Source of the DNA: an uncultured Clostridia bacterium
Lineage (GTDB): Bacteria > Bacillota > Clostridia > Christensenellales > Borkfalkiaceae
Reading direction: 5' to 3'
Length of the DNA stretch: 64,000 nt
NCBI GenBank assembly: GCA_949290575.1
Contig: CASESJ010000002.1
Coordinates: 1-64,000, forward strand
Below the pieces are notes generated by a model. That model had not been told where the DNA came from and did not search any database. It saw only the letters and a list, made by a program, of their open reading frames with translations. A program made the translations under genes and the position numbers. Positions within the stretch are counted from its first letter, which is position 1. Each line of letters opens with the position of its first letter. Below are positions 8,207 through 24,770 of this stretch, piece after piece.

Positions 8207-10060
8207 TTACGCGCCCTGAGCTACGCCGTCGTAGCTGAAAGTTACATTTGAATATTCTACCGTGAGGTTGCGGTTTGCAAACAGGCATATGTACATGTAG
8301 TTGTTGTCTACCGCCGTGAAGTCGAAGTCCGTATAGGTCTGGGTGTATACGTTTGCGCCGTCCTTTACGGTCACGGTTACGACCTGACCGAGCCTCGTGA
8401 TTGTCAGGTTATACGTATTGCCTGCGGTGGGGGTAATGCTCTTGTTTCCCTTAGTGATGGCATCCTGAGAGCTGCGGCTGAAGATGGTTGTGCCGTCCGC
8501 GAGCATGCCTGCCGCAACGTAGTTGCTCTGTATCATCTTTGAGTAGACGTCTATGTACATATCGTCGCGCAGCATAAGTCCGAAACCTGTCTGGTTGTTT
8601 CCTGCAGAGCCGCCTAAGGATACAAGTTTTGCGTCAACAGTAATTGTAAAGTTATCGTTCTTGCTCACGCGCATAAATGCTGTTGTGAAGCCGTCGGTTG
8701 TGCTTGCGAATTTACCGTTTGTTCCGCCGGGGTTGCTGACCGTGAAGGTGTTGTTCGCATATGATACGTTGAATTTTGCAAGTTTGTCGTTTCCGCCGAT
8801 GTCGCCAAGTGTCGACTTGTACCAATTTGTCTGGTAAGCTTCCTGCGTCTGCGAATTTGTGCCCGCTATCGTGGCAATCGCCGTCATGTTGTCGAGGTCG
8901 GGAGCTGTATAATCAGATTTGTTATAACCTTCCTTAATCGCAATCTTCCAATCGGTGGGAGCGGCTATATCTTCCTTGACGTGAGCGGCAAGGGGATTAT
9001 CCGTCTCCATGAGTGCGGTTGCAAGCTGATATACGACCATCTGCGCGCCGTACTTATTAATGTGCGTATCGTCTCTGCCGGCGGGGGTTTCGTTGGGTTT
9101 TACGCCGTCGTAAGAGGTGTGAGCGTGGAAGTATGCTGCAGCTGTGTTATCTGCTTCGTACAGAGTTTTTGTAATCGATGTGAGGTCGATAACCGTCGTG
9201 TCTGTAGCTTGCCCCAGCGTCTTTATAGCCTGAGTATAGTCGCCCTTGTCGGTGATATGTATCTTTGCTCCGCTGTATTCCGCCGTCGAAGAGTATCTTA
9301 CGATAGGGGTGCAGAGGATGGGCGTTGCGCCTGCGTCCTTTGCAAGCTTTACATAGTTTTCATACAGCGTGTACTGGAAGGAAGGTCCGTTTGTCGTGCT
9401 GTCGTCCGTGTATGACTTTGAGGGGTCGGTGTAGCGCGTTGCATCGTCGTCCTTCTCGTCGTTATGACCGAAACCGATAATCAGATAGTCGCCTTCGCCT
9501 ATGCTGTTTTTAAGAGTGGTGTAATTTGGTTCCGGCAAGAAGCTAAGAGAGCTTCTGCCCGAAATTGCAAGGTTGACAACCTGGTCGGCAGTTACGTTGA
9601 AGTATTCTGCAATCTGAGTGCCGTAACCGTATCTGGGCAAATAGTAATAATCGTCAAAGGAACTTACGGTTGAGTCGCCCACAACATAAATCTTGTTCTC
9701 TGCAGGGAGAGGTGTCGAAACAAATTCTTCGCCGCCTTCTTCGCCGCCTTCTTCGCCGCCCTGATCGCCGTCTTCTTCACCGCCCTGGTCGCCGCCTTCT
9801 TCGCCGCCCGGGTCGGGGGTATAGTCAGGGTCGGGCTGTCCGCAGACGGTACATTCGCCCTCGCTGAAAGTGTGAGGTGCTAAATCTTTGGTTTCGTCGC
9901 AGCCTGAGCAGTCGTGCCAATGGTTTTCGCTGTCTTTTGACCATGTCGTTGACCAATTATGAACATGACCTTCAGCAGGTGCGCAGCCCGATGCCGCAAG
10001 ACCGAAAACCATCACCGTTCCCATTACTACGGAAACAAGCTTTTTGATGGGGTTTTTCAT
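8207..10060 (-). CDS. Lipoprotein SGNH hydrolase, rhamnogalacturonan acetylesterase-like (paralogue)
   Basis: The 617-residue lipoprotein precursor has a signal ending AASGC and the same Cys/His module as its opposed neighbour. A longer Gly/Glu/Asp repeat linker (about residues 84-110) follows. The SGNH domain shows GDST, SGRSS, GHND and DDTHINKYG, so Ser, Gly, Asn and the Asp/His pair are all present. The C-terminal ~220 residues form a beta-rich domain, possibly carbohydrate binding. The catalytic domains of the two enzymes are only distantly alike while their N-terminal modules are nearly identical, which points to exchange or conversion of the 5' module. Start ATG 10060 follows AAGGAGAGA. 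It probably acts on acetylated pectin at the cell surface. Confidence 0.84.
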   Translation of the reverse strand: MKNPIKKLVSVVMGTVMVFGLAASGCAPAEGHVHNWSTTWSKDSENHWHDCSGCDETKDLAPHTFSEGECTVCGQPDPDYTPDPGGEEGGDQGGEEDGDQGGEEGGEEGGEEFVSTPLPAENKIYVVGDSTVSSFDDYYYLPRYGYGTQIAEYFNVTADQVVNLAISGRSSLSFLPEPNYTTLKNSIGEGDYLIIGFGHNDEKDDDATRYTDPSKSYTDDSTTNGPSFQYTLYENYVKLAKDAGATPILCTPIVRYSSTAEYSGAKIHITDKGDYTQAIKTLGQATDTTVIDLTSITKTLYEADNTAAAYFHAHTSYDGVKPNETPAGRDDTHINKYGAQMVVYQLATALMETDNPLAAHVKEDIAAPTDWKIAIKEGYNKSDYTAPDLDNMTAIATIAGTNSQTQEAYQTNWYKSTLGDIGGNDKLAKFNVSYANNTFTVSNPGGTNGKFASTTDGFTTAFMRVSKNDNFTITVDAKLVSLGGSAGNNQTGFGLMLRDDMYIDVYSKMIQSNYVAAGMLADGTTIFSRSSQDAITKGNKSITPTAGNTYNLTITRLGQVVTVTVKDGANVYTQTYTDFDFTAVDNNYMYICLFANRNLTVEYSNVTFSYDGVAQGA

Positions 10061-10095
10061 AAAAGTTCTCTCCTTAAATATAATTTATCAAATTA

Positions 10096-10124
10096 AGTAT
10101 AAAGTAAAAACGATATAAAATCAA
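10096..10124 (-). promoter_or_regulatory. sigA-type promoter of the minus-strand SGNH gene
   Basis: On the minus strand TTGATT (10124-10119), 17 bases and TATACT (10101-10096) precede the start codon by 35 bases. The -35 is the same as in the promoter of the paralogue. Confidence 0.72.
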
Positions 10125-10215
10125 TATACAAGGCATACTTTTATGCTGTACAGACATAATTTTTTGCAAAATTTTTATCTCGACGACAACCTGGCTGCAT
10201 CGGGGCGTAAAATTA

Positions 10216-11536
<1,321 letters not shown>

Positions 11537-14255: not shown

Positions 14256-15620
14256 TTATTCGCTGTAAAGGTCGTCGTCGCGATAGGAATAAGATTTTTC
14301 CTTTCTGCGGCGTTTTGCTTTGTTTTTGCTGCCGCGAGTGCCTATCACGGTCAGGTAGGCTATAGCTATGATGACAAGTCCGACTATGAGCAGTACTACG
14401 ATGACCGTCTGAATGTCGTTGTCGTAGGTGAAGCCCTCGGTTCCAGTCGTCTGCTGGGTCTGGTCCTCTGCGGAGAACTGGTAGGGGGTGAGGAAACCCG
14501 CCGCGACAAAGCCCGTAGCCGTCGTCTGTCCGTCGGAATAGCTTACCCTGTAAAAAACTGTGTCGAGATAGCGCAGTTCAAACTTCTCGCTGACTTCGAC
14601 AATCGTGCCCGCCTTTATGGGTGAAATTGCCGTTGCCCCGCACATATACGGGCGCGAATAGAGGGTTGTATCCATCAGAATATATGCGCCGTTCATGTCG
14701 GACGCGGGCGGGGAATAAGCCGAAGTTTCAAGGGCGGATGTCAGCGTTATATAGCTCGCGCCCCTGCCGTTTTCGTCCGCCATGATAATTATTGTGGCAT
14801 TGCCCGTCTCGGCAATGGCTAAAGCCGACCTGTCGGCGGTTATCTTTATCGTCTCTACCGACCTGAAAGTTTCGCCTATTTCTGTCAGGTCTATTCGGGT
14901 GCAGTAGGTTTCGTATCCCTCGGTCGTCTGCGGCTTTATGACTACCGTCTTTACCGTGTAATCGGACAGCAGAACCTGCGCCGCATTGCCTGCGGGCAGG
15001 GAGTAGGACGCTGAAAAATCTGTATATGTCGGAGGCGCAGCCTCTGCGGAAGTGCCGTTGAGCGCGTACACGCTTCCCTCGTGCATTACGTATGCCGTGC
15101 CGTCGTATTCCTTAAGATTGGAACAGTTCTCGTCAAATATAGTAAAACTTGCGTTGTTGTTGCCGGAATCGAAGCTCATAAGCGAGCCCGCAGACAGGAT
15201 ATACAAAAAATTACCTATCGTGACGGCGTCGGTTATGGGCGAAAACGAATAATCGCTCGGCGCAAGGTCGGGATAGCGGTAACTCAGTCCCTCCGCGCTC
15301 TGAATGTAAAGATTGCCGCCCTCGTCGCAGTCCAGCCGCTTGAGTTCGAACCCGCAGTCTACCGTAGTCAGACGTTCGTCGCCGAACTCGTCGGGCTTTA
15401 TGATGTAGAGCTTGGTGCTCTCAGCATACGCTCTTACATCTCCGTAAACCGCGTAGTCCGCAAGCGAGGTGAAGCTCAGCGTGCTCGAAAACGAGGTGGG
15501 GTAGTTGCACTCCTCTGTCGCACCGCCCTCGGCATAAGCTCTTTCAGCCGCAGTCATGTATGTCGGCGCGCACGCTATGATTGCCGCAAGCGCCGTTGTA
15601 AGTAAAACCGCCTTTTTCAC
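14256..15620 (-). CDS. Secreted, membrane-anchored protein with SH3-like domain, unknown function
   Basis: I do not recognise a named family. The 454-residue protein has a signal peptide (residues 1-30), an extracellular part of about 350 residues that may form repeated beta blades, an SH3-like segment around 330-390 (VEVSEKFELRYLDTVFYRVSY, cut here to its key part VFYRVSY), one C-terminal transmembrane helix (about 405-428) and a basic tail. The start is GTG at 15620. A perfect promoter ends 7 bases before it, so the mRNA is probably leaderless. The gene at 16417-17064 has the same layout, so the two may be related surface sensors or wall-binding proteins. Confidence 0.75.
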   Translation of the reverse strand: MKKAVLLTTALAAIIACAPTYMTAAERAYAEGGATEECNYPTSFSSTLSFTSLADYAVYGDVRAYAESTKLYIIKPDEFGDERLTTVDCGFELKRLDCDEGGNLYIQSAEGLSYRYPDLAPSDYSFSPITDAVTIGNFLYILSAGSLMSFDSGNNNASFTIFDENCSNLKEYDGTAYVMHEGSVYALNGTSAEAAPPTYTDFSASYSLPAGNAAQVLLSDYTVKTVVIKPQTTEGYETYCTRIDLTEIGETFRSVETIKITADRSALAIAETGNATIIIMADENGRGASYITLTSALETSAYSPPASDMNGAYILMDTTLYSRPYMCGATAISPIKAGTIVEVSEKFELRYLDTVFYRVSYSDGQTTATGFVAAGFLTPYQFSAEDQTQQTTGTEGFTYDNDIQTVIVVLLIVGLVIIAIAYLTVIGTRGSKNKAKRRRKEKSYSYRDDDLYSE

Positions 15621-15841: not shown

Positions 15842-16261
15842 ATGAAGAGCAAGAGGCTGATGAAGTTTTATTTTTGCGCCGACAGACTGAACGAGGCAAT
15901 GGACAGACTGATACTTGCAGCCGCGTGCGGGTCGGCGAACAGCATATACAACTGTGAGGAGAGCGCGGACAGGGTGGTCGCGCTGATAGAAGCGAAATAC
16001 GCGCTTTCGGGGCTGTGGAGCTATCTTGACGGAGTGATGAAGGGGTTTTGCGGAGAGGACAAGGCAGTTCTGTACGGCTATGCGTTTTCGCGCGGCGGCT
16101 GGGCGAGGCTTGGAAGGGAGCGAGGCAATGCCATAAGAAAGGTTGTCGTGCGGTTCATGCGCAGGGCGAAGTATCTTGAAAGATATGAAGAAGCCGTGCG
16201 CGTGCTTGACAGATTTTATGCTCTCGTCGGCAGGGGCGAGGGGCTGAAAGATCTCAAATAA
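15842..16261 (+). CDS. Small helical protein, possible RinA/ArpU-like phage regulator
   Basis: This 139-residue basic protein is predicted to be almost all helical and I cannot name it with certainty. The stretch from about residue 75 to 115 (EDKAVLYGYAFSRGGWARLG and onwards) has the spacing of a sigma region-4 or ArpU/RinA helix-turn-helix. Such proteins control late genes in phages of Gram-positive bacteria, and the gene lies 0.9 kb before a terminase. A strong GAGGAGG precedes the ATG, and palindromes lie upstream. A minus-strand host-type gene separates it from the terminase. It could also be an unrelated host protein. Confidence 0.55.
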   Translation: MKSKRLMKFYFCADRLNEAMDRLILAAACGSANSIYNCEESADRVVALIEAKYALSGLWSYLDGVMKGFCGEDKAVLYGYAFSRGGWARLGRERGNAIRKVVVRFMRRAKYLERYEEAVRVLDRFYALVGRGEGLKDLK

Positions 16262-16416: not shown

Positions 16417-17064
16417 CTATTCGGTTTTGTGTTTTTTTGAGGAGACGAACACGAGGATGAGCGCGCCGGCAGACAGGGCGACAATTATGACGGCGGTTAT
16501 AATCTGACCGCTGTCCGTGCCTTCGTTTTCCTTCGGCTGAGCGTCGTCTGACGGCGCGTCGATTAAGGGGTAATCGTCGTTTGCCCCGCGGATATACCCG
16601 AACGAATCGCGGCAGAGGACATACGAATACGCCGTCGCGCCCGAATAATAAGTGCCGTAAAAGGCGGCTTCGAGCTCTATTTCGTCGAGTACTGGCAGCG
16701 AGCTGTCCCCGTCCGAGGCGGAATATGAAATGGTGAGGGCTTTATACAGATATGTAACTTCGGGCGGCTCGTCCAGCGCGGCAAAGTCGCTCTTTAAAAC
16801 ATAGCCGTACAGCGCGCGGTAGATGCCCTCGTCTTCGGCGTACTGAACATAGTACCAGTCTCCGTCGTCGCGCAGTATTTTTACGCAGTATGTAAAGGGT
16901 ACTGCGAACAGCGATGAGGATAAATCTTTCTGCTCGAAGAAGTACGACGCGCGCGACGAGGCGCGGGCGTAGTTGTCGCTCGCAGGCTCGGCGGCATAGA
17001 CGGGTGAAACTGTGTTCAGGGCGAGCGAGACTATGCAAATTATTATTAATAATAATTTCTTCAT
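16417..17064 (-). CDS. Secreted, membrane-anchored SH3-like protein, unknown function
   Basis: The 215-residue protein has a signal peptide (1-25), two SH3-like beta segments (about 40-95, with DGDWYYVQY, and 100-155), a linker and a C-terminal transmembrane helix (about 185-208) with a short basic tail. Signal, SH3-like part, helix and tail occur in the same order as in the protein encoded at 14256-15620. A TATAAT lies 8 bases before the ATG, again suggesting a leaderless mRNA. It sits inside the interval between the possible phage regulator and the terminase, on the other strand. Confidence 0.72.
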   Translation of the reverse strand: MKKLLLIIICIVSLALNTVSPVYAAEPASDNYARASSRASYFFEQKDLSSSLFAVPFTYCVKILRDDGDWYYVQYAEDEGIYRALYGYVLKSDFAALDEPPEVTYLYKALTISYSASDGDSSLPVLDEIELEAAFYGTYYSGATAYSYVLCRDSFGYIRGANDDYPLIDAPSDDAQPKENEGTDSGQIITAVIIVALSAGALILVFVSSKKHKTE

Positions 17065-17123: not shown

Positions 17124-18566
17124 ATGCAAAGACAAGAAATTATCGAAAGAATTGCCCGCATAGACGCAATTCTGTCCGCACGCGCAAGGGAGAACAAACT
17201 TCTCTCATACAATTCAGGCAGAAAAAAGCACAAAAAGCAGATAGCCTTTCACAAGTGCAGAAAGCGCAACCGCTGGGTGTTCGGCGGCAACCGCTCTGGC
17301 AAGACGGAGTGCGGCGCGGTCGAGGCGGTGTGGATGGCGCGGGGCATTCATCCCTACCGCAAGAACAGAAAAAACGTCTTCGGCTGGGTGGTTTCCCTCT
17401 CCCAGCAGGTTCAGCGCGACGTCGCGCAGAAGAAAATTCTGTACTATCTTCCGCCCTCGTGGATAGAGGACGTAATCATGCTCTCGGGCAGAAAGGACAG
17501 TCCCGCAAACGGCATAATAGACCAGATTAAAATCAAAAACGTCTTCGGCGGAATTTCCACGATAGGTTTCAAAAGCTGCGACCAGGGCAGGGAAAAATTT
17601 CAGGGCAGTTCGCTCGATTTCGTCTGGTTCGACGAAGAGCCGCCCAAGGATATCTATGAGGAATGCGTCATGCGCGTCATGGACAGACAGGGCGATATCT
17701 TCGGCACTATGACCCCGCTCAAGGGCATGACCTTCATATACAACGAAATATTCCTCAACCGCCGCGGCAATCCGCAGATATGGTGCGAGTTCATGAGCTG
17801 GGAGGATAACCCCTTTCTGCCCGCAAAGGAAATAAAACTTCTGGAAAGTTCGCTCGACGAGCACTCGCTCGACAGCAGGCGATACGGCAGATTTTCTGCG
17901 GGCGAGGGGCTCGTCTATCCCGAGTTCGACCCGTCGGTGCACGTCATACCGCCCTTCGCCGTGCCGCCCGAGTGGCAGGATACCATATCCATAGACCCGG
18001 GGCTCAACAATCCGCTTTCGGCGCACTGGTACGCCGTCGACTGGGACGGAAACATCTACGTAGTGGCGGAGCACTTCGCCGCGGGGAAAGACGTGGAGTA
18101 TCACTCTCGGGCAATTAAAAACATATGCGCTTCGCTCGGCTGGAAGAGCGACGGCGCGGGCAGATATTCTGCCCTCATCGACAGCGCGGCGTCGCAGCGC
18201 ACGCTGGCATCGAGCAAGAGCGTGGCTGAACTCTTCCGCGAAAACGGCATTATGGTCAACACGAAGGTGGATAAGGACGTGTTCGCGGGGATATGCCGCG
18301 TGAAGGAATATCTCAAGCGGGACAACGGCAAGGCGGATATATATATTTTCGATACCTGCAAAAACATGATAGAGGAGTTCTGCGGCTATTGCTGGGCGGG
18401 CGGAGACAGCCCGAAAAAGGTGGACGACCACTGCATGGACGAGCTGAGGTATTACATAATGACGCGCCCCCGCGCCGCGACGCGGACGGAGCTTTCGCCC
18501 ATAGCCGAGGACAAGAAAAGGAGGATAAGGAGGTTGAAAATTGACGCAAAAAGACGACAGTCTTGA
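17124..18566 (+). CDS. Phage terminase large subunit (ATPase and nuclease)
   Basis: The 480-residue packaging motor has an intact ATPase: Walker A GGNRSGKT (54-61), Walker B FVWFDEE (Asp170, Glu171/172) and the coupling motif GTMTP (194-198). The nuclease domain keeps Asp291 (SIDPG), Asp353 (LIDSA) and Asp434/435 with His436 (DDHCMDEL). It would thread DNA into proheads through the portal encoded just downstream. ATG 17124 was chosen because longer forms run into the opposite-strand gene; its ribosome site is weak (GGGAG, 16 bases away). It starts the head operon. All catalytic residues being kept argues against long decay. Confidence 0.92.
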   Translation: MQRQEIIERIARIDAILSARARENKLLSYNSGRKKHKKQIAFHKCRKRNRWVFGGNRSGKTECGAVEAVWMARGIHPYRKNRKNVFGWVVSLSQQVQRDVAQKKILYYLPPSWIEDVIMLSGRKDSPANGIIDQIKIKNVFGGISTIGFKSCDQGREKFQGSSLDFVWFDEEPPKDIYEECVMRVMDRQGDIFGTMTPLKGMTFIYNEIFLNRRGNPQIWCEFMSWEDNPFLPAKEIKLLESSLDEHSLDSRRYGRFSAGEGLVYPEFDPSVHVIPPFAVPPEWQDTISIDPGLNNPLSAHWYAVDWDGNIYVVAEHFAAGKDVEYHSRAIKNICASLGWKSDGAGRYSALIDSAASQRTLASSKSVAELFRENGIMVNTKVDKDVFAGICRVKEYLKRDNGKADIYIFDTCKNMIEEFCGYCWAGGDSPKKVDDHCMDELRYYIMTRPRAATRTELSPIAEDKKRRIRRLKIDAKRRQS

Positions 18567-18807
18567 AAGGGCTCTCAAAAAGTGCGCGGTGGGTTTCGAT
18601 ACGAGCGAGACGGTCGAAGAATTCGCCGTGCAGGACGGCGAGCTCAGGCTCGTCAAGCGCAAGGTGACGAGGCGGGACATTCCGCCCGACATAAAGGCGG
18701 TCAAAATGCTGCTCGACGACAGACAGGAAGAAACCGTTTCCGATGAAGAGTTGTCCGCCGAGCGCGAAAAACTTATAAAAATGTTGAAGGAGGAAGATTT
18801 TGACTGA
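18541..18807 (+). CDS. TerS-like C-terminal fragment or small packaging protein
   Basis: The 88-residue protein starts at TTG 18541 behind AAGGAGG (18527-18533), inside the last 26 bases of the terminase gene. Its centre (VEEFAVQDGELRLVKRKVT, then PPDIKAVKMLLDDR) follows the pattern of the C-terminal part of many phage terminase small subunits, where a charged strand pair is followed by a PPD..A..F.L.NR helix. The DNA-binding HTH part of those proteins is missing. Order after, not before, the large subunit is also unusual. It may bind the large subunit or portal. The assignment is inference. Confidence 0.5.
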   Translation: MTQKDDSLERALKKCAVGFDTSETVEEFAVQDGELRLVKRKVTRRDIPPDIKAVKMLLDDRQEETVSDEELSAEREKLIKMLKEEDFD

Positions 18808-20647
18808 AGAAATGAAAAGAGCCGAAAAGGCGAGAGAGCAGATTGCGGACGACGTGATGCGCGATTTCGCGCTCAGGCAGGAGGAACGCAGGCAGCTCGA
18901 AAGGGGCTGGCAGCTCAACATGAACTTTCTGTGCGGCAATCAGTATTGCGACGTCAACTCGCTCGGCGAGATTGAAGAGGACGCGCAGGGCTTTTTCTGG
19001 CAGACGCGCAGGGTATTCAACTACATTGCGCCCACGGTGGACATGCGCTGCGCCAAGCTTGCGCGCATCAGACCCAAGCTCGCCGTAAGAGCGGCTACCG
19101 ACGAGGACGGCGACATTCGCGCGGCGGACATCTCGTCGCGCATTCTCGCGGCGGTGTGCGAGAGAGAAAATATCGACGACTGCATAACCAAGGCTACCGT
19201 CTGGTCGGAGACGTGCGGCACGGCGTTCTATAAAATCATATGGGACAACGGCGCGGGCGACGTTATAGCCTCTGACGAAGACGGCGAGGTGCGCTCGGGC
19301 GGGGTAAGGGTAATTCCCGTTTCGCCCTTCGAAATTTATCCCGCTTCGCTCTCGGAGGAGAGCCTTGAAAATCAGCCGAGCATAATTCACGCCAGAGCCG
19401 TCGCGGTCGAGGATATCTATGCCGCATACGGCGTAAAGCTGGTCGGCAGGGACATAGACGAATTTTCGCTCTCGCCCTATTCTGCGTCCGTTCACTCGGT
19501 GACGCGCGTTTCGCCCGTTACAGCCAAAAAACACGGCTACGAGACGGTCATAGAGCGTTACGAGCGTCCCTCGCCCGAATGTCCGCTCGGCAGACTGACG
19601 ATAGTTGCGGGCGGCGTGCTGCTCTTCGACGGCGACCTGCCGTATACTAACGGAAAGGACGGCGGCAGAGGCTATCCCTTCGTGCGACAGAGCTGTCTGC
19701 CGCTTGCGGGCGGATTTTTCGGCGGCAGCGTCGTCGACAGGCTCATTCCCGTTCAGCGCGCCTACAACGCCGTCAAAAACCGCAAGCACGAGTTTCTGAA
19801 CAGAATTTCCATGGGCACTATCGCTGTCGAGGACGGCTCGATAGATACCGACGAACTCATGGAAGAGGGGCTCTCGCCCGGCAAAGTGCTCGTGTACAGG
19901 CAGGGCGGCACGCCGCCCGAAATGCTGTCGCTCGGCTCTGTGCCCTCGGAGTTTTCCGAAGAGGAAGACAGGCTGGTCGAAGAGTTCTCGCGCATATCCG
20001 GCGTAGGCGAAGTCAACTGGCAGTCGGGCGGGTTCAACTCCGTCACTTCGGCTACGGGATTACAGCTTTTAATCGAACAGGACGAGGCGCGTCTGAGCGT
20101 TTCATATGAGCAGATCAAGAGCGCGCTCAAAAAGATAGGGCGGCACATATTGCGCCTCTATCGACAGTTTTCAGCCCAGCTGAGGGTCATGCGCGGCGCG
20201 CACGAAAAGGGCGCGTGCGGTCTGATTTCCTTCACTGCGGGCGACATAACGAGCGACGACGTCGTGCTCGAGGCGGACAGCGAAATCAACCTCACTCCCG
20301 CCCAGCGCAGGACGGTCATATACGATATGATGGAAAGGGGACTTTTCAGCGACGACGACGGCAGGATAAGCGCGGGCGTCAGAAACAGAATTCTAAACTA
20401 TCTCGGCTATGAGGGCTTCAGCGAGAGCAGGGATATATCGTCCCTGCACAGGTCGCGCTGCGCCGAGGAGAACGCCGCGCTCTGCACGGGCGAAGTCGCG
20501 GTGAAGTCCTATGACGACCACGCTCTGCACATAGCCGAACACACCGCATACATACTGAGCGGCAAACTCACTTCCCAGCAGGAGGCGCGCTTTGTGCGCC
20601 ATCTTGAAGAGCATAAAAAACTTTTAAAGGAGGAACAGAATGGATAA
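18800..20647 (+). CDS. Phage portal protein (P22-like)
   Basis: The 615-residue protein has the profile of large podoviral portals: an N-terminal charged helix, the segment RRVFNYIAPTVDM followed by KLARIRPKL, a central GGSVVDRLIPVQRAYNAVKN region, the SGVGEVNWQSG region with QEDEA-type helix after it, and a long helical C terminus. Portals form the dodecameric DNA gate in the capsid vertex and dock the terminase. TTG 18800 follows AAGGAGG by 6 bases and overlaps the preceding gene by 8. It is full length with no frame damage. Confidence 0.88.
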   Translation: MTEEMKRAEKAREQIADDVMRDFALRQEERRQLERGWQLNMNFLCGNQYCDVNSLGEIEEDAQGFFWQTRRVFNYIAPTVDMRCAKLARIRPKLAVRAATDEDGDIRAADISSRILAAVCERENIDDCITKATVWSETCGTAFYKIIWDNGAGDVIASDEDGEVRSGGVRVIPVSPFEIYPASLSEESLENQPSIIHARAVAVEDIYAAYGVKLVGRDIDEFSLSPYSASVHSVTRVSPVTAKKHGYETVIERYERPSPECPLGRLTIVAGGVLLFDGDLPYTNGKDGGRGYPFVRQSCLPLAGGFFGGSVVDRLIPVQRAYNAVKNRKHEFLNRISMGTIAVEDGSIDTDELMEEGLSPGKVLVYRQGGTPPEMLSLGSVPSEFSEEEDRLVEEFSRISGVGEVNWQSGGFNSVTSATGLQLLIEQDEARLSVSYEQIKSALKKIGRHILRLYRQFSAQLRVMRGAHEKGACGLISFTAGDITSDDVVLEADSEINLTPAQRRTVIYDMMERGLFSDDDGRISAGVRNRILNYLGYEGFSESRDISSLHRSRCAEENAALCTGEVAVKSYDDHALHIAEHTAYILSGKLTSQQEARFVRHLEEHKKLLKEEQNG

Positions 20648-21083
20648 CACGAACGACCTCAAGCCGACGACGGCAGACCCCGCGGAGGCGGAAAGAGAGA
20701 ACGCTGCGACGGACCTCGGCAAGTTCAGGGACGTGCGTGCCCTGCTCGATGCCTACAACAGCCTGGAGGCGGAATTTACCCGACGCAGCCAACGCCTCAG
20801 AGAGCTGGAAAAAGCGGAAAAGGAGGACGACGCGCCCGTCGCAACGGATACCGCGCCCAATCCCCCGCAGGGGCAGTTGCAGGGTGCGGCTCTGCTCGAA
20901 GCGGCGCAAAATGACGAGGAGGTAAAGGCAGCCATAATTTCGGAATACCTTCTCAAAGCTTCGAAAAACAGGGGCGTACCCATAGTCACGGGCGGGGTCA
21001 ACGTGCCCGCCCGCAAAAAAACGCCCGTTTCGGTGCGCGAAGCGGGCGAACTCGCAAAACAATTTCTGAATAAAAGGAGTTAA
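20640..21083 (+). CDS. Phage scaffolding-like protein
   Basis: This 147-residue charged protein lies in the usual scaffold position between portal and capsid. Residues 24-60 contain the FRDVRALLDAYNSLEAEFTR type helix common in small phage scaffolds, then a Pro/Gln-rich linker and a C-terminal helix rich in basic residues that could bind the capsid. AAAGGAGG precedes the ATG, which overlaps the portal gene by 8 bases. No protease gene is nearby, as expected for P22-like heads. Confidence 0.75.
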   Translation: MDNTNDLKPTTADPAEAERENAATDLGKFRDVRALLDAYNSLEAEFTRRSQRLRELEKAEKEDDAPVATDTAPNPPQGQLQGAALLEAAQNDEEVKAAIISEYLLKASKNRGVPIVTGGVNVPARKKTPVSVREAGELAKQFLNKRS

Positions 21084-21088
21084 CATCA

Positions 21089-22249
21089 TTGATTACATTA
21101 ACTAACGCCGATGCGGCTCTCAAAGATTACTACCTCGACGCCGTTTCCCAGCAGCTCAACGAGGACGTCTCGCCCTTTCTGAATGCGGTTGAAAAGAGCT
21201 CGCAGTACGTGAGCGGCAAGAACGCAAAGTGCGCACTCATCAACGGCGACCTCAACAGAATTATGACGGGCGACGAGGACGGCGACCTTCCCGACGCCAC
21301 GGGCAACAACTATTACGACGTCACCGTTCCCCTCAAGAATATCTACGGCACTATAGCCATCACGGACAAAGCCCTGCGCGCGGCGCAGGATTCTTCGGGA
21401 ACGTTCGTCAACCTGCTCAACACCGAAATGGAGGGGCTCATCGCCGACGCAAAGGCAAACTTCGCCCGCATGCTCTACGGCGACGGCAACGGCATACTTG
21501 CCTATATAACCAAGGTTTCGGGCACTAAAGTCACCATCTCGACAGCCAAGAGCTGGTTCCTCGGGCTCAATGTCGACATTGCAGACATCAATACGTCCGC
21601 CGCTGCCGTCTCAGGGCTCAAGATTGCCTCTGTCGATATCCCCAACTGCACCATAACCTTCTCCACAACCGTCGAAAATCTTTCGACATACGTCGGCAGA
21701 TATATCTGCGTGAGCGGTGCTTTCGGCAAGGAAATCTGCGGTCTCGCGGGCATATTCGACTATGCGACGCTCTACGGTCACAACAAGGTTTCGGATAAGT
21801 TCTTCTATCCCTACGTGACGGGCGCGACCGCAGTCAGCGAGGACGGCATTCTCGACGCAATTCAGGTGCTCGAAGAGCGCGGCGGCAAGGTGGGAATGAT
21901 ACTCTGTTCTCACTCCATGCGCAACAAAATCGCCAAGCTGTTCAAGGACAGAATGTCAATTCCCTCTACCGACGCGAGAGGCGGCTACACTTCGGTGTAC
22001 GTCAACGACGTGCCCGTCTATGCCGACAGGTTCTGCCCCGACGACAGAATTTACTTCCTCAATCCCGACGACTTCGTGCTCTGCCAGCTGTGCGACTGGG
22101 AGTGGATGGAGGACGAGGGAGGCAAGATACTTTCCAAAGTGCCCGGAAAGGCTGCATATACCGCAACGCTCGTCAAGTACGCCGAACTCATCTGCAAAAA
22201 GCCCTATACGCAGGGTCTCTTCCAGGTATATCAGAACCTCACGACCTAA
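21089..22249 (+). CDS. Phage major capsid protein (HK97-fold candidate)
   Basis: The 386-residue protein starts at TTG 21089, 9 bases after AAAGGAG. Position after portal and scaffold, length, and content (N-terminal helix, VPLKNIYGTIAITDKALRAA, then a P-domain-like GGKVGMILCSHSMRNKI helix, and a C-terminal strand region with VYVNDVPVYADR) fit HK97-fold capsid proteins. It has an inserted beta domain around residues 150-220. It would form the icosahedral shell. Identity rests on context and pattern rather than a diagnostic motif. Confidence 0.82.
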   Translation: MITLTNADAALKDYYLDAVSQQLNEDVSPFLNAVEKSSQYVSGKNAKCALINGDLNRIMTGDEDGDLPDATGNNYYDVTVPLKNIYGTIAITDKALRAAQDSSGTFVNLLNTEMEGLIADAKANFARMLYGDGNGILAYITKVSGTKVTISTAKSWFLGLNVDIADINTSAAAVSGLKIASVDIPNCTITFSTTVENLSTYVGRYICVSGAFGKEICGLAGIFDYATLYGHNKVSDKFFYPYVTGATAVSEDGILDAIQVLEERGGKVGMILCSHSMRNKIAKLFKDRMSIPSTDARGGYTSVYVNDVPVYADRFCPDDRIYFLNPDDFVLCQLCDWEWMEDEGGKILSKVPGKAAYTATLVKYAELICKKPYTQGLFQVYQNLTT

Positions 22250-22300
22250 ATTCAGTTCCGCGGGCGCAAGCCCGCGGATAATTCCGGATAAGGAGGTAAT

Positions 22301-22855
22301 ATGACGGTAAATAATCTTATAACCGAAACGCTCGTCCTCATGGGCATGTCTCAGGCGGCGGACGAGGGCGAAGACCCCTCCGCCGCAGATACGGCGCGCA
22401 TGCGCGGCATACTGCTGCTTTGTTTCAACGCCGTCGCAGACGAGCTGGCGCGCGGCTACTTTCCGCTGAAAACCGTACAGACCCTCACCTCTGATACGGG
22501 CAGCTATATGTTCGCCGATTTTCCCCTCGTGCCTTACAGAATAATATCCGTAAAGAGCGGAGGCGAAAAGGTGGCTTGGAAACTCAGACCGCTCTGTATC
22601 GAGTGCGACAGACCGTCGATAGATGTGGAGTACGAATACGTTCCTCAGCGCAAGGAGGCGGACGACGAGTTTTCCTATCCCGACACCGCGGTGTCTGAGC
22701 TGCTCGTCGAGTACGGCATGGCGGCTGAATATATGCTCATCTGCGGCGACGCGGAGGCTTCCGCCGCGTGGGAGAGCAGGTATCGCGCCGAGATAGACAG
22801 ACAGCTCTCCGCCCGCCCCGTCAGGGGCAGAGTGCCTCCGAGGAGGTGGCTGTGA
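22301..22855 (+). CDS. Head-tail connector (gp4/gp11-type adaptor)
   Basis: The 184-residue protein starts with helices (LITETLVLMGM, then ILLLCFNAVADELARGYFPL) and continues with strands and a further helix (SELLVEYGMAAEYML). This pattern and the place right after the capsid gene match podoviral adaptors that close the portal ring. AAGGAGG precedes the ATG by 6 bases. Its stop overlaps the next start by 4 bases. Confidence 0.7.
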   Translation: MTVNNLITETLVLMGMSQAADEGEDPSAADTARMRGILLLCFNAVADELARGYFPLKTVQTLTSDTGSYMFADFPLVPYRIISVKSGGEKVAWKLRPLCIECDRPSIDVEYEYVPQRKEADDEFSYPDTAVSELLVEYGMAAEYMLICGDAEASAAWESRYRAEIDRQLSARPVRGRVPPRRWL

Positions 22856-24126
22856 GAATTCGCAAGGACAAGGAGCTCAGAGCGCCGTCCTCCAAGGTCA
22901 GAAAGATTTCTCTTCTGGGCGAGGATGAGGGCTATACGGATTCCACTCTGAATTATATCCCCGAGGGCAAGGGGTACAAGTGCGCCCCGCTTCCCGTCAT
23001 GACGACGTACTACGGAACTCTTCCCGGAAATCCGATTGCTCTGCATTATTCTCAGGCTAACGGCGCGTTCTTTTTCGTGACGCAGGACGGAGTTTATCTT
23101 ACGGACAAGTCCAAAAACAAGACGCACCAGAAGATTTATTCGGGCTCTTCGCCGCTGCCTTTCTTTGTCGATATGTACATAAACGGCTTCTCCTGCACGG
23201 TGATGTTCTGCGGCACGCAGAGAGTTGTGTACAACGGCACGCAGGTCGAAACGTTTACGGATACCCGACAGTTCCGTGCGGGAGTGATGCACTGCGGCAG
23301 ATTTTTCGGCGCGGACTACTCGGACGGCGTCAAGCTTTGGTGGGCAGCCACTCACGCGGCGGACTGGACGGAGGGCATTGGCGGGTGCGGCTATATCTTC
23401 CTTCCGCCCGAGGGCGGAGCGATAGTCAGACTGTTCAGCTACGGCGACAGGCTGGTAGTGCTGCGCGAACGCGGAATTACCGTGGTCAGAGCTTACGGCG
23501 AACCTCAGCATTACAGCGTGGAGAGTTGCGCCTCATACCTCGTGACCGAGGGCATAATCGGCGAGACCTGCGCGTTTGCGGGCGGGAAAATTCTCTTCTG
23601 CACGCCGTACGCGCTGTACGCCTTCGACGGCAACTCGACGGAGCGTCTGTGCGAGCTCGGCGAGGGGAAGTATTATCTGCCGCAATCTGCCGTCGGAATG
23701 GGGGATATCTACTGCCTGAAGTGCGCCTACGACGGTATCGGCTGCATAATGGGTTATGACTGCGTCACGGGGAAGGTCTGGAAGTGCTATACGCTCTGTA
23801 CGCTCATGTGCGTCTGTTCGGACGCCATTTACATCTTCAGTCAGAGCAGCGTATATTATTTCGACCGCTCGCAGTGCGCGCTGGCAAAATGGCATTCCAA
23901 AGAGACCGACTTCGGCACCGACGGAGTAAAGTTGCTGAAGAGCATAAACATCACAGGCAAGAACAGCATATTCATAATCGTCAAGTGCGACGGCGTGCAG
24001 CGCACCTATGAGGGTACGGGCAGGCACAAAATTATGATGCACGGCAGAAAATTCACTTTTACCGTGACGGCGAACGGCGATTTGCAGGAAATTGTTGCCG
24101 AACTGGAGGTGCGGGATGGAATTTGA
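22852..24126 (+). CDS. Tail hub, nozzle or DNA-stabilisation protein (beta-propeller-like)
   Basis: The 424-residue protein starts at GTG 22852, 5 bases after AGGAGG. It is rich in short beta strands repeated every 40-60 residues (for example GYIFLPPEGGAIV, LFSYGDRLVVL, GDIYCLKCAYDGIGC), as expected of a propeller. P22 gp10-type stabilisation proteins and T7 gp12-type nozzles occupy this place after the adaptor. I cannot choose between them. It carries many cysteines (over 15), unusual for such a protein and possibly linked to a reducing cytoplasm. Confidence 0.6.
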   Translation: MRIRKDKELRAPSSKVRKISLLGEDEGYTDSTLNYIPEGKGYKCAPLPVMTTYYGTLPGNPIALHYSQANGAFFFVTQDGVYLTDKSKNKTHQKIYSGSSPLPFFVDMYINGFSCTVMFCGTQRVVYNGTQVETFTDTRQFRAGVMHCGRFFGADYSDGVKLWWAATHAADWTEGIGGCGYIFLPPEGGAIVRLFSYGDRLVVLRERGITVVRAYGEPQHYSVESCASYLVTEGIIGETCAFAGGKILFCTPYALYAFDGNSTERLCELGEGKYYLPQSAVGMGDIYCLKCAYDGIGCIMGYDCVTGKVWKCYTLCTLMCVCSDAIYIFSQSSVYYFDRSQCALAKWHSKETDFGTDGVKLLKSINITGKNSIFIIVKCDGVQRTYEGTGRHKIMMHGRKFTFTVTANGDLQEIVAELEVRDGI

Positions 24127-24613
24127 CATAATCGACTTCAGCGAAGAGGAGGTGCAGGCTCTCACCACGGTGCAGCTCAAGCTTCTGCGCACGGCGCAGC
24201 AGAAAAAGAACGAGCTCGAGCACAAAATGCAGCAGGAACTCGAGGTGTACAGGTGTCTCTGCTACACCAACAACGTGTTCTTTTCTTCGCTGTATACGGA
24301 CAAGCAGCAGGAACTTCAGCAGGAGTTCGACTATCAGGTTGAAATTCTGCGCGAGCAGCTCATATTCAATATGAGCCTCAACGAGCCCACGCACGACGAC
24401 GAGACGGGCGACAGCGGCATGGGCGACGACGCGGCTTACGTCGTCGACTACGAGCTGTCCTATCTCGAAAGGTACATAATAGTTCGCGACTATTACATGT
24501 CCATAGAGGACCCTGCCGAAAGAATGGCTCTCTACGGCGCGGACGAGGTGGCGAAGAATTATCTGGGCAGTTACTACAACACTCTGTATAACTACCTCGC
24601 CACTTACGACTAA
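24116..24613 (+). CDS. Coiled-coil protein, last gene of the phage-type operon
   Basis: This 165-residue acidic protein is not recognised. Residues 10-95 form a long heptad-like helix (LLRTAQQKKNELEHKMQQ and following) and the C-terminal half is acidic and Tyr-rich. GGAGG lies 8 bases before ATG 24116, and the gene overlaps the tail-hub gene by 11 bases, so it is translated with the head module. It might be an ejection, tail or internal head protein. After its stop the same frame stays open for another ~45 codons with five Cys. Confidence 0.6.
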   Translation: MEFDIIDFSEEEVQALTTVQLKLLRTAQQKKNELEHKMQQELEVYRCLCYTNNVFFSSLYTDKQQELQQEFDYQVEILREQLIFNMSLNEPTHDDETGDSGMGDDAAYVVDYELSYLERYIIVRDYYMSIEDPAERMALYGADEVAKNYLGSYYNTLYNYLATYD

Positions 24614-24736
24614 AAGTCGCGTCGCTGTCTTTTGTACGGGCAGATTGTCTGTGCCCGAGGCGGAAAATCTTATGTATGCGACGGAGGAAAACCAGTCGCC
24701 TGCACCCAAGGAAAAACCTGCCGCATTGCAAGAACG

Positions 24737-24770
24737 GGGCGGGCGGTCGTATGACCGCCCGCCCTTTCAT
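24737..24770 (+). terminator. Strong terminator closing the phage-type operon
   Basis: A 12-bp perfect GC-rich stem (24737-24748 with 24753-24764) and 4-nt loop are followed by TTTCATTTTT. It separates the module from the next promoter by 27 bases. Confidence 0.88.

Follow-up and report, generated by a model that had tools for sequence, protein, structure and literature searches.

Gene transfer agents (GTAs) are known in few lineages, and in gut Clostridia only recently; RcGTA has a siphovirus-like phage ancestor. GTAs have been defined by six features, namely particle proteins derived from caudoviricetes, full endogenisation (often over several loci), mostly vertical and host-congruent inheritance, packaging of random host DNA, a head too small for the GTA gene set, and delivery of DNA to cells (PMC9662315). 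RcGTA and other rhodogtaviriformids show vertical, host-congruent trees, splittable loci and a small terminase subunit (TerS) without DNA-binding domain; the RcGTA genes lie over five loci and transfer has been tested (PMC9662315). FpGTA of Faecalibacterium belongs to a Gram-positive gut clostridial host, occurs in every genome of its genus that was examined, and consists of a podovirus-type operon (among others TerS without DNA-binding domain, large terminase subunit TerL, portal, scaffold, capsid; no tail visible) and a second operon with fibre, receptor-binding protein, holin and endolysin; its 40-nm particles with about 9 kb of DNA have been observed (PMC12946183). GTA-like packaging was also seen in Christensenellaceae, with no locus named (PMC12946183). 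Here we analyze a phage-derived gene module in a 64,000-nucleotide stretch (the window; positions 1 to 64,000 of contig CASESJ010000002.1, assembly GCA_949290575.1) of an uncultured Clostridia bacterium, represented by a metagenome-assembled genome (MAG) of 1.54 Mb and 95.9% completeness, with Candidatus Coproplasma and Clostridia MAGs as named relatives in the genome collection. We consider it likely that this locus, of which no description was found in the literature, is an ancient domesticated, vertically inherited podovirus head/short-tail module that works as a GTA.

Eight plus-strand open reading frames without internal stops, overlapping or abutting, occupy positions 17124-24613, in agreement with a preliminary description of eight tightly packed, unbroken genes that end at a strong terminator. 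That description ran the module from a terminase to a tail-hub-like protein. The gene run was recovered, but its last gene is p8, and the hub-like protein is p7, by its model a short-tail nozzle. The start at 17124 was too late: the conserved unit of about 8.8 kb begins at about 15842, taking in the gene at the regulator position and a divergent gene for an SH3/transmembrane (TM) protein, both of which are members of the unit. Terminase, portal and capsid were identified with Pfam and PHROGs profiles, and the unit is composed as follows.

15842-16261, plus strand: small gene standing where other families encode a sigma-70 region-4-like regulator (position; weak hhalign link)
16417-17064, minus strand: exported SH3/TM protein with signal peptide, two SH3-like barrels and C-terminal TM segment (AlphaFold model), divergent from TerL
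17124-18566, plus strand: TerL, large terminase (Pfam Terminase_6N, 2e-14; Terminase_6C, 1.4e-5)
18541-18807, plus strand: p2, 88 amino acids, probable GTA-type small terminase stub (homologues match phrog_309)
18800-20647, plus strand: portal, P22 type (P22_portal, 4.7e-15; phrog_156, 3e-33)
20640-21083, plus strand: scaffold-like protein, named only from its position in the portal/capsid interval, which is kept in synteny
21089-22249, plus strand: major capsid protein, SU10/HK97 type (SU10_MCP, 7.6e-9; phrog_14242, 3.9e-40)
22301-22855, plus strand: p6, putative head-tail adaptor (phrog_2377 through one homologue; position)
22852-24126, plus strand: p7, predicted short-tail nozzle of P22 gp10 / Sf6 gp8 / T7 gp12 type (fold match)
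24116-24613, plus strand: p8, short relative of the DUF7934 coiled protein (hhalign)
24736-24765, plus strand: intrinsic terminator (13-bp stem, 11 G-C pairs, T-rich tail)

Within the genus, essentially every congener whose contig is long enough has the eight genes in one order and at one site, flanked by the exported SH3/TM gene and by rlmI-rluD, at 45-93% protein identity; the preliminary description had proposed such a comparison, together with one of selection on terminase, portal and capsid. Nearly all of these reading frames are open, the exceptions being a frameshift in the G011 capsid gene and a stop codon within the TerL gene of G032, which may be assembly errors (genome, family, locus and contig codes are anonymous working labels). 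By the Nei-Gojobori method, in a comparison with the nearest relative in which synonymous divergence (dS) is sizeable, the ratio of nonsynonymous to synonymous substitutions (dN/dS) was 0.074 for TerL, 0.116 for portal and 0.225 for capsid, and 0.06-0.34 over the module except for the short scaffold gene (0.37). The module is thus under purifying selection, with housekeeping-like dN/dS and no sign of relaxation; in the flanks, malic enzyme has dN/dS 0.068 (dS 0.83) and rlmI 0.056 (dS 0.70). TerL, p2, portal, capsid and p8 have dS of 0.66-0.86, equal to that of the flanks (0.70-0.83), which indicates that module and flanks have been diverging over the same time; the short scaffold gene falls below this range (dS 0.28), p6 and p7 above it. 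The unit is missing or broken in two congeners. G025 shows a clean deletion: nothing of the unit, the SH3 gene included, is left between the neighbouring exported gene and rlmI. In G061, everything from TerL to capsid has given way to 8 kb of low-GC DNA that carries a DNA methyltransferase gene. The other apparent absences that were checked in the genus fall at contig ends or in MAGs that lack the flank as well.

Across the order, the capsid profile matches 243 of 396 genomes and 71 of 138 genera, mostly with one copy, and presence is near-binary by family. With genome totals per family as listed through an rpoB search, carriers make up 37/39 genomes in f1, 35/35 in f19, 36/38 in f27, 35/38 in f31, 34/37 in f6, 25/31 in f3, 3/3 in f18, 2/2 in f10 and 2/2 in f8, compared with 0/110 in f4, f11, f17, f21, f23 and f30 together (0/39 in f4); f24 is intermediate (21/31, with weaker scores). 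In the rest of the sampled class, just 11 genomes match. A tree of TerL, portal and capsid from 45 genomes in 11 families had 30 of 42 bipartitions in common with the rpoB tree, a single-gene host tree, and no conflict between the two was strongly supported (FastTree supports); genus-only distances correlated at r = 0.91 (Mantel test, 0/999). In one f6 genome the module lies between the rlmI-rluD genes and the d3-d4 genes, which flank the Coproplasma module too, suggesting that f6 and Coproplasma share the ancestral neighbourhood. Taken together, distribution, trees and neighbourhood point to one ancient acquisition, probably in the ancestor of about ten families, followed by vertical descent.

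The gene content of other families bears on function. In f27, the regulator, the SH3 gene and TerL stand together 24-55 kb from a portal-capsid-holin block, all intact, and G063 lacks both parts. A phage so divided could not package itself; a system maintained by the host can. Adjacent capsid genes are seen in one f27 genome (G120:C2:8035-9201 and 9219-10370; loci L112 and L128), an apparent tandem duplication. Most other families have a longer operon, extended by a full-length DUF7934 gene and by genes for BhlA and Phage_holin_1 holins. The DUF7934 proteins occupy the place of the shortened p8 (hhalign E = 6.6e-9, probability 95.8).

As the preliminary description stated, the active-site residues of the terminase are intact: Walker A (GGNRSGKTE), Walker B (FDEE) and the nuclease residues D291, D353 and D439 show essentially no variation across 17 homologues, and TerL ranks with the most conserved genes. 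Retention of ATPase and nuclease residues suggests that DNA packaging is probably the function under selection. Among 15 p2 homologues, 11 match the terminase small subunit profile phrog_309, with matches that begin at profile position 194-204 of 319. We therefore regard p2 as a probable GTA-type small terminase stub without DNA-binding domain; loss of the N-terminal DNA-binding domain of TerS has been proposed as a GTA hallmark (PMC6854486). With portal, adaptor and nozzle, the conduit of a short-tailed phage is complete. One of 15 p6 homologues matches the head-tail adaptor profile phrog_2377 (1.7e-6). For p7, profile searches of the Protein Data Bank, like those with p6 and capsid, gave no useful match, and fold search alone was decisive: the structure model (predicted local distance difference test, pLDDT, 89.9) has podovirus tail proteins at the top Foldseek ranks (Z = 24.9 for the Pa223 tail and about 21.7 for P22 gp10), and the best fold matches are nozzle or tail proteins of Pa223, SU10, P22, Sf6, VP1, GP4 and T7. 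The scaffold-like product has no family match in Pfam or PHROGs.

Compared with the definition above, three of the six features are seen in the gene data: terminase, portal, capsid and nozzle of caudoviricete derivation; full endogenisation (a fixed genus locus, split loci in f27 and f70, no integrase near); and vertical inheritance (module and rpoB trees, equal dS, family-wise distribution). The other three need experiments, although an intact TerL and a TerS stub are consistent with packaging of random host DNA. The likeness to FpGTA, which we compared by its published description, extends to the host, the occurrence across a genus and the operon. In contrast to FpGTA, the module is known from its genes alone, is spread over many families and has a linked regulator and divergent SH3/TM protein; no second operon was found in the genus by searching for BhlA and Phage_holin_1, and the holins of other families stand in the same operon. 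With RcGTA it shares host-congruent descent, split loci and probably the truncated TerS, the phage ancestor being a different one.

These comparisons lead to the following scheme, in which conservation supports the first step and we infer the others from gene content in MAG assemblies. Purifying selection has preserved a single chromosomal unit (TerL, shortened TerS, portal, scaffold, capsid, adaptor and nozzle) ever since the ancestor of about ten families. Its expression would be induced, and in many families the activator is probably the upstream-encoded sigma-70 region-4-like regulator. Judging by the intact motor motifs and by a TerS stub that probably lacks a DNA-binding domain, TerL would then package chromosomal DNA without sequence choice into small heads. 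Particles would exit by lysis, with BhlA and Phage_holin_1 holins in most families and by some other route in Coproplasma and f19. Finally, the portal-adaptor-nozzle conduit would deliver the DNA to kin.

Several observations weigh against a GTA. Packaging and delivery by the module are deduced from genes only, and p2 of the window has no direct TerS match. The preliminary description had seen no holin, and own-genome searches for a second lysis operon indeed found neither BhlA nor Phage_holin_1; the latter is absent from the other tested f1 and f19 genomes as well. At the locus, neither a fibre nor an endolysin gene could be identified, a genome-wide search for either not having been made. 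The missing holins, fibre and endolysin leave release and adsorption unexplained. The identity of the regulator is weak in this genus: the window protein aligns with the Sigma70_r4_2 proteins found upstream of the SH3 gene in other families at hhalign E = 6.5e-4 and probability 27. Moreover, the deletion in G025 and the disruption in G061 show that the unit is dispensable.

The preliminary description proposed a domesticated capsid system, either GTA-like or effector-borne, with a decayed prophage as the alternative; domestication is supported, and the alternative is contradicted by synteny, dN/dS, trees and open reading frames, on which grounds we rejected a decayed prophage. A decaying or satellite-like remnant that is by chance still intact is scarcely credible. 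Every module protein is of phage origin, the class contains true prophages with homologous portal and capsid genes (L322, L323, L324), and two congeners lack a working unit; against this stand intact genes at one locus across the genus, at protein identities of 45-93%, housekeeping-like dN/dS with dS equal to the flanks, congruent trees, near-universal presence in several families and the lack of an integrase nearby. Integrase, repressor, replication gene, lysis gene and att repeats are all invisible at the locus, as had been noted in part before. The three tyrosine integrases of the genome are on contigs C1, C4 and C5, with none on contig C2, which carries the module; no tRNA lies in the window, and no direct repeat flanks the unit, repeats being weak among the 20 largest of 43 families. 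Base composition is host-like, as previously described: module GC is 0.560 and GC at third codon positions 0.724, compared with 0.534 (sd 0.036) and 0.646 (sd 0.062) for other window genes. Neither pattern that the preliminary description had set against domestication was found. Relatives carry the same short module at the locus rather than a complete prophage with integrase, and near-binary presence by family, vertical phylogeny and purifying selection take the place of patchy presence with relaxed selection. A capsid-forming satellite (cf-PICI), with its own integrase and varying insertion sites, was likewise rejected, given the constant locus in the genus and a contig without integrase.

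Other uses of a domesticated capsid have to be considered. A PBSX-like role, in which a DNA-packaging capsid would kill or lyse cells and deliver no genes, is improbable: p7, the fastest-evolving gene of the unit (dN/dS 0.342), would suit target choice, no fibre is visible, and the same alternative was raised for FpGTA (PMC12946183), but the unit has no recognisable toxin or lysin gene and the complete conduit is that of a short tail, with no contractile or long tail. Co-evolution of p7 with surface proteins, as expected for a self-encoded receptor, was examined and dismissed: partial correlations were 0.47 and 0.28, and an unrelated neighbouring surface protein gave 0.52, so that there is no specific receptor signal. 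A non-DNA use, such as a protein compartment or effector delivery, is very unlikely. Although cargo or surface roles are conceivable for p8/DUF7934 and the SH3/TM protein, a motor for DNA would serve no purpose without DNA, and TerL is both highly conserved and invariant in its catalytic residues. The GTA branch of the earlier proposal fits better than the effector branch, because of the invariant terminase motifs, the TerS stub, the full DNA conduit, the split loci in one family and the lack of any recognised effector gene.

Beyond the locus itself, we lean towards an undescribed podovirus-type GTA family with a single origin, in the common ancestor of about ten host families, and with later diversification alongside its hosts, in which a sigma-like regulator and a divergent membrane-anchored SH3 protein are constant and the Coproplasma-f19 branch works without the ancestral holins. 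If so, it would be a candidate for the origin of the GTA-like packaging of DNA in Christensenellaceae faecal particles. A GTA-like locus of such age, spread through an order of gut bacteria of which most are uncultured, would rank among the most widespread known, and it could account for gene flow as well as for the bacterial DNA in faecal viromes. A fixed site, a TerS stub, the regulator-SH3-TerL unit and the lack of an integrase provide a sequence signature for such loci. The genome also has a ComEC-type gene, which is no more than permissive for delivery of DNA to other cells.

Among phages, homologous portal, capsid and nozzle genes occur in true phages or prophages (L206, L322-L324, L327), all of which lie outside the module clade; for TerL and for capsid, the module sequences form clades apart from true phages, L206 among them, with supports of 0.995 and 0.98. 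L206, a temperate phage contig from IMG/VR, has the order TerL, portal, scaffold, capsid, adaptor, nozzle and a TerL 52% identical to that of the module; however, it also has a resolvase, repressor-type and replication genes, a full TerS and a likely fibre. Similarly, portal, capsid and nozzle are of the type of P22/SU10-like short-tailed phages, whereas the module locus is without their integrase, repressor, replication, fibre and lysis genes and full TerS. Many short IMG/VR contigs (L130-L203) fall inside the chromosomal module clade; these related pieces in the viral collection may be host DNA counted as virus.

The SH3/TM protein (AlphaFold pLDDT 78) has homologues adjoining TerL in about 25 further viral-collection loci and in other families. 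Next to it in the window lies one more constant neighbour.

14256-15620, minus strand: exported, membrane-anchored protein (signal peptide, C-terminal TM segment), conserved in position, membership of the unit uncertain

This protein is fast-evolving, at 25-50% identity in most congeners. Its gene persists in G025, where the rest of the unit is deleted, and it may thus be a neighbour and not a part. Similar-looking exported minus-strand genes are found upstream in other families too.

The insert in G061 (L341, 3560-11800; 36% GC) carries, besides the DNA methyltransferase, other genes, some of them defence-looking, and in viral-collection contig L177 the capsid gene is immediately followed by methyltransferase-type genes. 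Defence islands may be attracted to the locus. In f70 (L325, L326) and f100 (L321), two families of other orders, scaffold and capsid genes stand beside or near serC, in f70 together with a small gene, an adaptor and a nozzle, and with TerL elsewhere. The f70 and f100 loci are perhaps a second, more dispersed GTA-like system.

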